A stretch of 40,372 nucleotides of DNA from Acidobacteriota bacterium (GTDB taxonomy: Bacteria > Acidobacteriota > Terriglobia > Acidiferrales > UBA7541): positions 1 through 40,372 of the forward strand of contig QHZB01000186.1 of NCBI GenBank assembly GCA_003224525.1. The letters run 5' to 3'. Under the pieces are notes generated by a model that saw nothing but the letters and a program-made list of their open reading frames with translations, was not told where the DNA came from and ran no database searches. The position numbers and the translations under genes were made by a program. Every line of letters starts with the position of its first letter. The stretch's first letter is position 1. Below are positions 16,243-17,216 of this stretch, piece after piece.

Positions 16243-16629
16243 ATGAACTCGAAAAACAATGAAGTGCGGGCCCCGCAAAGTACAACAGGAAAGAAGCAAG
16301 ACTCCGGCATCTGCGCATCCCTGGGCGCGATTCTAAGCTCGCTCACCACGATGGGTTGCTGTCTTCCTTTGGGATTTGCAGGCGCGCTGGGGACGGCGGG
16401 CGCGAGCGCATTTCTGCAGAGGTTCCGGCCCTGGCCACTGGCACTTTCCATCTTGCTGCTGGGAATTGGATTTTGGCAGCAGCGCCGCGCGAGGCTGTGC
16501 GCGGTGAAACGGAGTTACTTGAGCGCCGCGCTGCTTTGGACAGCAGTGGTATTCGTTGTGGCGACGGTGGTTTTCCCTCAGGAAATCGCAGGATTCATCG
16601 CCGATCATTTTTCAGGTGCCGCGAAGTGA
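16243..16629 (+). CDS. MerT-like membrane protein
   Basis: A 128-residue membrane protein with the vicinal cysteine motif TMGCCLPLGFAGALG (C39-C40) in the first membrane helix. Other cysteines are C24 and C86, and there are about three membrane spans (roughly 26-58, 64-80, 93-113). The GCC pair in helix 1 followed by a short loop is the pattern of mercuric transporter MerT, in which the cysteines pass Hg2+ inward. No merA, merP or merR is present nearby, so mercury transport is not established; another thiophilic metal or a redox role is possible. Its stop overlaps the GTG of the selenoprotein-like gene (GTGA), implying coupled translation. Confidence 0.75.
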   Translation: MNSKNNEVRAPQSTTGKKQDSGICASLGAILSSLTTMGCCLPLGFAGALGTAGASAFLQRFRPWPLALSILLLGIGFWQQRRARLCAVKRSYLSAALLWTAVVFVVATVVFPQEIAGFIADHFSGAAK

Positions 16630-17216
16630 AGAAAAAAACCTTTGCCATCGGCGTGTTTGCAGTGATCCTAATCTTTCTCGCGGTGTACTTCATGCTGGAT
16701 TCTTCCACGCCGACCGGTCAGGATCCTCTCGCCACGCTTACAACCGCGAATTTCGCGACGTTCGAAGAGTCCTTCGACAAATCCATCGAAGGGCCTCGGC
16801 TGGTACTCCTTCTTTCTCCGACTTGATCCACCTGTCTGCGGGGGGCCTCCGCAGTCGAACAACTCTTGCAACATTATTCGAACCCTTCGCTCCGGGTGCT
16901 GGTGGTGTGGGAGCCGATACTTCCGACGGACTTGCGTTCACCGGTTCATAGCACGCTCGGGAGAATCCTGGACAAGCGTACCCGTCAATTCTGGGACCCG
17001 CAACATCTCGTCGCACAAGAGCTCGGCAGGATTGCCGGTGAAAACCCGGGACAACCGAAGCCCGATTGTTGTATCAATCGAGGATTCTTCTGGGACGATG
17101 CCATTCTCTATGCACCACATTCGCAGTGGCGGCAGACACCGGCGGCTGTTTTCTGGAACGGTCCGGTCGTCCGCGTGACTTCTGCCCTCGAGAAGACACT
17201 CCATGATCGCCCATGA
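16626..17216 (+). CDS. Candidate selenoprotein: membrane-anchored thioredoxin-like protein with UxxC motif
   Basis: One reading frame from GTG 16626 to TGA 17216 is open except for a single internal TGA at 16824-16826 (codon 67). Residues 5-24 form a signal anchor (FAIGVFAVILIFLAVYFML), placing the rest in the periplasm. The strand RLVLLLSPT is followed by the internal UGA, then S-T-C70, so the UGA sits at the first cysteine of a thioredoxin-like CxxC. The sequence afterwards remains protein-like in the same frame: GASAVEQLLQ helix, RVLVVWEPILP strand, PKPDCC (C148, C149), and TPAAVFWNGPV resembling the cis-Pro strand. A hairpin at 16836-16854 fits a bacterial SECIS. Read as selenocysteine, the protein is 196 residues. 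The alternative is a Cys-to-stop mutation. The likely role is thiol redox or metal handling with the MerT-like partner. Confidence 0.72.
16824..16854 (+). promoter_or_regulatory. Candidate bacterial SECIS element after in-frame UGA
   Basis: After UGA (16824-16826) and a 9-nt spacer, CTGCGG (16836-16841) pairs with CCGCAG (16849-16854). A G-U and a G-C pair can extend the stem, leaving a G-rich apical loop at about 16843-16847. The loop begins about 17 nt after the UGA and starts with G. Bacterial SECIS elements lie inside the coding region just after the UGA, with a small apical loop carrying G near its start, so position and shape agree. A bulged U, often seen before the upper stem, could be U16835. 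Folding was done by eye. Confidence 0.6.

Follow-up and report, generated by a model that had tools for sequence, protein, structure and literature searches.

Selenocysteine (Sec, U) at the first position of a UxxC centre is shared by several bacterial thioredoxin-type selenoproteins, among them the selenocysteine Trx, TlpA-like, SaoT and DsbG-like proteins (PMC13188914). These also have in common with the family described here a preceding hydrophobic strand, a bacterial SECIS element (bSECIS) just downstream and the existence of Cys homologues. Selenium together with mercury transport is a known theme, other mercury-related selenoproteins being listed in reviews (e.g. PMC13188914). The selenium-metal link is shared by the putative mercuric transport protein (PF02411, C/SxxU), the UxxU metal-binding protein NF041115 and the MerT/CopZ fusion-like NF045683, and the SAO system likewise joins selenium with heavy-metal or organometal handling. 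Selenols are among the strongest ligands of mercury.

The window analysed here (the whole stretch of 40,372 nucleotides from an Acidobacteriota bacterium) carries a MerT-like gene followed by a reading frame interrupted by a single TGA. The locus and its relatives tie selenocysteine to a mercury-type operon in Acidobacteria.

Conserved in-frame TGA, hairpin and selenocysteine machinery

The gene (16626-17216, + strand; GTG start, 196 residues plus stop, defined by frame translation and family alignments) contains one internal TGA, at codon 67 (16824-16826, + strand), followed by S-T-C, and closes at the TGA at 17214-17216. This confirms what an earlier note, made from the sequence alone, had claimed for the frame. 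The readthrough protein begins with a hydrophobic helix and continues to RLVLLLSPT-U-S-T-C-LRGAS. When 61 relatives were searched, matches were found in 18 genomes; 17 of the 19 matching places (window included) contain a single TGA, which falls at this codon within (S/D/E)PT-U-x-x-C, and the remaining two are short matches that do not cover the TGA codon. Profile searches matched 67 of 399 genomes at class level and 50 of 396 at phylum level. Before counting, three short fragments (G016 C329, G015, G075) were dropped from the class set, and four weak or partial places (G163, G493 C352, G507, G725) and three genomes that the class set already covered (G000, G058, G199) from the phylum set. The 116 loci that remained, some of them near-copies or paralogues within one genome, comprise 94 with TGA (55 from the class set and 39 from the phylum set, window included), 11 with Cys and 11 with neither. 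Recurrence of the TGA at codon 67 is far beyond chance, and an assembly error is very unlikely because so many other genomes have the same TGA. The earlier note had proposed looking for homologues with C or U at position 67, and the 94 Sec and 11 Cys loci are such homologues.

Comparison with the closest relative of the window protein (L018, 77% protein identity) gave mismatches by codon position of 14/8/24 over the 66 codons that precede the TGA and of 18/5/30 over the 129 that follow, a pattern from which we conclude that the stretch after the TGA is coding. Substitutions among four relatives compared show coding constraint on both sides.

Just downstream lies a bacterial SECIS-like hairpin (16836-16854, + strand; arms 16836-16843 and 16847-16854, loop 16844-16846), supported by pair conservation and covariation. 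Its 8-bp stem, CTGCGGGG/CTCCGCAG, starts 9 nt past the TGA and encloses the loop GGC; the distance from UGA to loop is 17 nt and the folding energy is -14 kcal/mol over 50 nt. The hairpin satisfies the four published constraints on bSECIS elements, namely a stem of 4-16 bp, a loop of 3-9 nt with G within its first two positions (PMC13188914), a distance of 16-37 nt from UGA and an MFE of at most -7.5 (PMC13188914, section 5). Energy alone is ordinary (z -0.60, 52 of 200 shuffles as good), and a search of the whole window against Rfam gave no match at gathering scores, which is no test of a SECIS.

Conservation of the pairs is the stronger evidence. Across 93 distinct sequences 656 of 744 pairs are formed, against 593.6 (sd 5.0) when codons were exchanged, column by column, only between sequences that agree in the amino acid there, and none of 2000 shuffles reached as high. 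A less redundant set of 64 sequences gave 444 of 512 pairs against 398.4 (sd 4.7), again with 0 of 2000 as high; these codon shuffles leave the relatedness of the sequences in place. Sliding one arm left only 285-403 of the 744 pairs. The hairpin is thus kept beyond protein and codon constraint. In 65 sequences the fifth codon past the TGA is CGG or CAG and the eighth encodes Ser; of these, 45 combine CGG with TCC, 20 combine CAG with TCT and none is mixed. Because the TCC/TCT switch leaves the serine unchanged, it is naturally explained by pairing. Five or fewer of the eight pairs were found in 11 of the 94 sequences, mostly distant ones, scored in a fixed 8-bp register with no per-sequence shift. 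Cys forms retain only two to four of the eight pairs (10 of 11 Cys loci measured; L139 was omitted, its motif SPNCGVC having escaped the search pattern).

The genome that contains the window (6.47 Mb, 516 contigs, about 98% complete) encodes selA (568 bits), selB (364 bits), selD (351 bits) and a 99-nt tRNA-SeC with anticodon TCA (UCA) and G before CCA. Among the 396 phylum genomes, selA exceeds its cut-off in 34 of the 37 that have the TGA form and in 216 of the 359 others (Fisher p 5e-5). Two of the three exceptions (G493, G525) have tRNA-SeC, and the third (G635) is 72% complete. Sec at codon 67, as the earlier note had inferred, is supported by the U and C homologues and by selA, selB, selC and selD in the same genome; we regard Sec insertion, still without selenium incorporation data, as nearly certain. 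The genome's own selD (L103, G000:C379:15159-16124, - strand) also contains one in-frame TGA, and SelD of this organism is probably itself a selenoprotein.

Members of the family and their predicted fold

The motif of the 94 Sec loci is U-x-x-C in 92 and U-x-x-U in two. U is preceded by SPT in 83 of the 94 and by DPT, APT, EPT, GPT, SPI, SPG or APS in the rest. The two U-x-x-U members (L151, L159) have two TGA codons three codons apart.

Cys forms stand at several places in a quick tree, which requires at least eight changes, six of them forced by starred branches. In genome G539 the family is present in three copies, two with Sec and one with Cys (L148, L149, L156). The sole Cys form of the class set is in G199; of 23 genomes tested this one alone lacks selA over the cut-off, and no tRNA-Sec match was found there at E 1e-7. 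We considered whether Cys forms mark genomes that lack the Sec machinery and rejected this as a rule; it fits only G199. As selA is present in 10 of the 11 Cys-form genomes, the use of Cys does not simply reflect loss of the machinery. A further 11 members (L086-L092, L097-L100), all of family f7 and nine of them in genus g54, lack both catalytic residues and have PTR..A and similar sequences in their place, for example SPTRPAALAGAS. Their genomes possess selA, and the 2 kb inspected around each of the 11 contain no metal gene of those searched for. From their sequences we infer that they are redox-dead paralogues, whose use is unknown. With natural Sec, Cys, U-x-x-U and redox-dead versions at hand, it becomes possible to test what Sec offers over Cys.

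Beyond these sets, the single window protein searched against genome contigs found three named relatives, all 'Acidobacteria bacterium isolate gp2' MAGs. A search of viral contigs with the window protein found no relative, nor did one of plasmids with a Cys form (L096).

The motif and a structural model of low confidence suggest a thioredoxin-like fold. The model, built from a shallow set of 4 sequences (mean pLDDT 55.3), has a thioredoxin-like order of elements, with U67 after a strand and just ahead of a helix, a placement of low confidence. Foldseek returned seven PDB matches at E 0.001 or less, of thioredoxin-like, DsbE, DsbF and DipZ types (labels assigned by title or known family), with ResA and TlpA just below the top matches. 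VIA-align gave Z of at most 8.8 with GPX chains tied, and both comparisons are weak evidence. No fold beyond the thioredoxin, GPX and peroxiredoxin group stands out among the listed structure matches, which does not prove that there is none. The family profile run against PDB sequences gave five matches, the best at E 0.18, located at CxxC motifs in disulfide oxidoreductases and glutaredoxins.

Sequence models offered less. A Pfam and NCBIfam scan of 53 members (E 0.1) found no model matched by more than one member; the single-member matches included Redoxin (0.017), YtxJ (0.063) and TrbB (0.067). The window protein itself had no Pfam match at E 1 and no HMA domain. The earlier description of the protein as thioredoxin-like rests on motif and model; no sequence family supports it. 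Lipobox-like sequence occurs in five members and, together with the N-terminal helix, suggests export, which remains an inference.

The family is missing from the protein-family libraries searched, and gene callers would cut its members at the UGA. A 2026 catalogue of 119 selenoprotein families (PMC13188914) has no identifiable entry with the motif and context of the family; several of its entries are named by broad domains only, and an unrecognised overlap is possible. No title or abstract in the open-access literature searched, which excluded supplementary tables, describes it. The claim that the selenoprotein was undescribed is thus supported as far as searched, and it is likely that both the family and its mercury-type gene context, which the earlier note did not mention, are new.

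The MerT-like partner and the metal-gene context

Directly upstream of the selenoprotein gene, with its stop overlapping the GTG start by 4 nt, lies an ORF (16243-16629, + strand) for a MerT-like membrane protein of 128 residues with a vicinal Cys-Cys pair and no in-frame TGA. It is identified by NCBIfam MerTP_fusion (E 1.5e-5, but 24.7 bits, far below the cut-off of 180) and by the same upstream neighbour in relatives. A MerT-like gene is directly upstream in 38 of the 55 class-set Sec loci and three of the 39 phylum-set ones. Within 2 kb one is found at 46 of 94 Sec, three of 11 Cys and none of the 11 residue-less loci; the phylum set contributes just eight of its 39 Sec loci to this count. 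A MerT-like profile run against the 399 class genomes gave 40 strong matches (E 5e-26 or better). Every one immediately precedes a family member, the gap between the two matched regions being 3-49 bases, and two of the 25 weaker matches do so as well. The 40/40 count is biased, because the profile derives from 25 of these upstream neighbours; unlinked copies of the same subfamily should nevertheless still have been seen. The gene pairing is shown; contact between the two proteins is inferred. MerT passes its Pfam cut-off near members at three loci (L116, L161, L122).

Regulators of the MerR family lie within 2 kb of 32 of the 116 loci (30/94 Sec, 2/11 Cys, 0/11 residue-less), and these counts are lower bounds, as flanks were often 1.5 kb. 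Automatic clustering of the flanking ORFs yielded mainly shadow ORFs and was set aside. A spaced C...C...CP three-Cys pattern, assigned by pattern alone to the Hg(II) site of MerR, is present in 26 of 28 near-full-length MerR sequences. Four MerR sequences scanned with NCBIfam fell below every curated cut-off, and in one (L064) the Zn model scored above the Hg model. The order merR, DF, merT-like, selenoprotein was seen directly at two loci (L019, L064), where the genes overlap or nearly touch. The DF-family protein (NF049942) is near 26 of 94 Sec and one of 11 Cys loci, and exceeded its cut-off in both cases tested. At those two loci the DF family (seleno)protein gene between merR and merT-like is of Cys type (L064:2421-2729, - strand; L019:843-1163, + strand). 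The DF-like match at L116 has one in-frame TGA in its aligned stretch. The merR/merT setting may offer a clue to the function of this uncharacterised family.

Other neighbours in the phylum that exceed Pfam cut-offs are MerT, MerC, MerR, HMA, zf_CopZ and Trns_repr_metal (a metal-sensitive repressor family). At L161 a single ORF (1929-2837, - strand) joins an HMA domain of MerP type, at the N-terminus, to a Cys form; MerT precedes this ORF, and CopZ-type and CsoR-type genes follow it. The association is not universal: at 45 of the 94 Sec loci the flanks inspected (2 kb, often 1.5 kb) contain no metal gene of those searched for. The window locus keeps only the merT-like and selenoprotein genes, with no merR within 2 kb; judging from their ORFs, the genes before merT-like resemble a nucleoside-salvage set. 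MerA was over its cut-off in none of 30 genomes tested, all of which have related oxidoreductases below it.

Proposed role and comparison with known systems

We propose, with a probability of roughly 0.62, that the protein is an exported Sec-containing thioredoxin-fold partner of the MerT-like transporter, acting on mercury or a similar metal. SelB, directed by the hairpin that follows the UGA of codon 67, would insert selenocysteine there. The product, exported and anchored by its N-terminal helix, would present the UxxC centre of a thioredoxin-like fold and act together with the MerT-like membrane protein of the adjoining upstream gene. On the outer side of the inner membrane the selenol/thiol pair of the product may capture Hg(II), or another metal with an affinity for thiols, and pass it to the Cys-Cys of MerT, which is the job of MerP, or it may keep the MerT thiols reduced. 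A metal-linked role is, on balance, what the evidence favours; it is inferred, as is the identity of the metal, and there are no metal-binding data. Capture and hand-over is preferred to a general redox role because of the type of regulator, the recurring mer neighbours and the HMA fusion. A helper that reduces the thiols of MerT remains possible and fits equally well, so the specific MerP-like hand-over should be held as tentative, its odds slightly below even. A bolder reading, of which we are also more doubtful than confident, makes merR-DF-merT-selenoprotein an operon for selenium-dependent metal import or detoxification, with the Sec thioredoxin in place of MerP and without a canonical MerA; as no MerA exceeded the cut-off in the 30 genomes, the fate of imported Hg is open. 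If the proposal is true, a selenol beside a mercury-type transporter turns the weakness of selenols towards mercury into a tool.

The most serious alternative is that the selenoprotein is a general periplasmic thiol-disulfide enzyme of TlpA/ResA/DsbE type, and that the mercury genes are incidental to it or are helped by its redox activity. The low-confidence model does resemble TlpA/ResA/DsbE-type and GPX chains, and nearly half of the Sec loci (the 45 noted above) show no searched metal gene nearby. Against it stand the links seen repeatedly, in several families of the phylum, to MerT-like, MerR, MerC, HMA, CopZ-type and CsoR-type genes, and the single HMA fusion at L161, and we consider this explanation unlikely.

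Doubts may also be raised about the codon. The UGA could be read as cysteine, by a selC*-type tRNA-Cys, or as tryptophan; chemistry has not excluded this, and Cys homologues exist. However, the UCA-anticodon tRNA is called as tRNA-SeC and ends in G-CCA, a SerRS-type discriminator and not U73 (PMC7609411), selA and selD are present, and the hairpin is absent from the Cys forms measured, which together make such a reading very unlikely. That the TGA is an ordinary stop, in a decayed gene or through an assembly error, finds some support in a separate ORF of 116 codons downstream of it; this is all but excluded by the same TGA in 94 loci and by coding constraint on both sides in four relatives.

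The exported partner proposed here resembles MerP, the periplasmic mercury-binding protein of mer operons, in being a small, probably exported partner of a MerT-type protein, and the fusion of the L161 Cys form to an HMA domain adds to the likeness; the window protein differs from MerP in having no HMA domain and a different predicted fold. The DF family NF049942 provides a second small redox-type protein in the operon of relatives, but it is encoded by a separate gene between merR and merT, and the window family misses the NF049942 model. The SAO system has a thioredoxin-like protein of its own, SaoT (NF040730), whose model family members do not match. Compared with the thioredoxin-type UxxC selenoproteins as a group, the window family has its own motif, mostly SPT-U-x-x-C-x-x-G, and no NCBIfam or Pfam model fits more than one of its 53 scanned members. 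In the putative mercuric transport protein (PF02411), NF041115 and NF045683 Sec lies, by name and domain, in the transport or HMA-type protein itself, whereas the window family places it in a separate thioredoxin-like protein.
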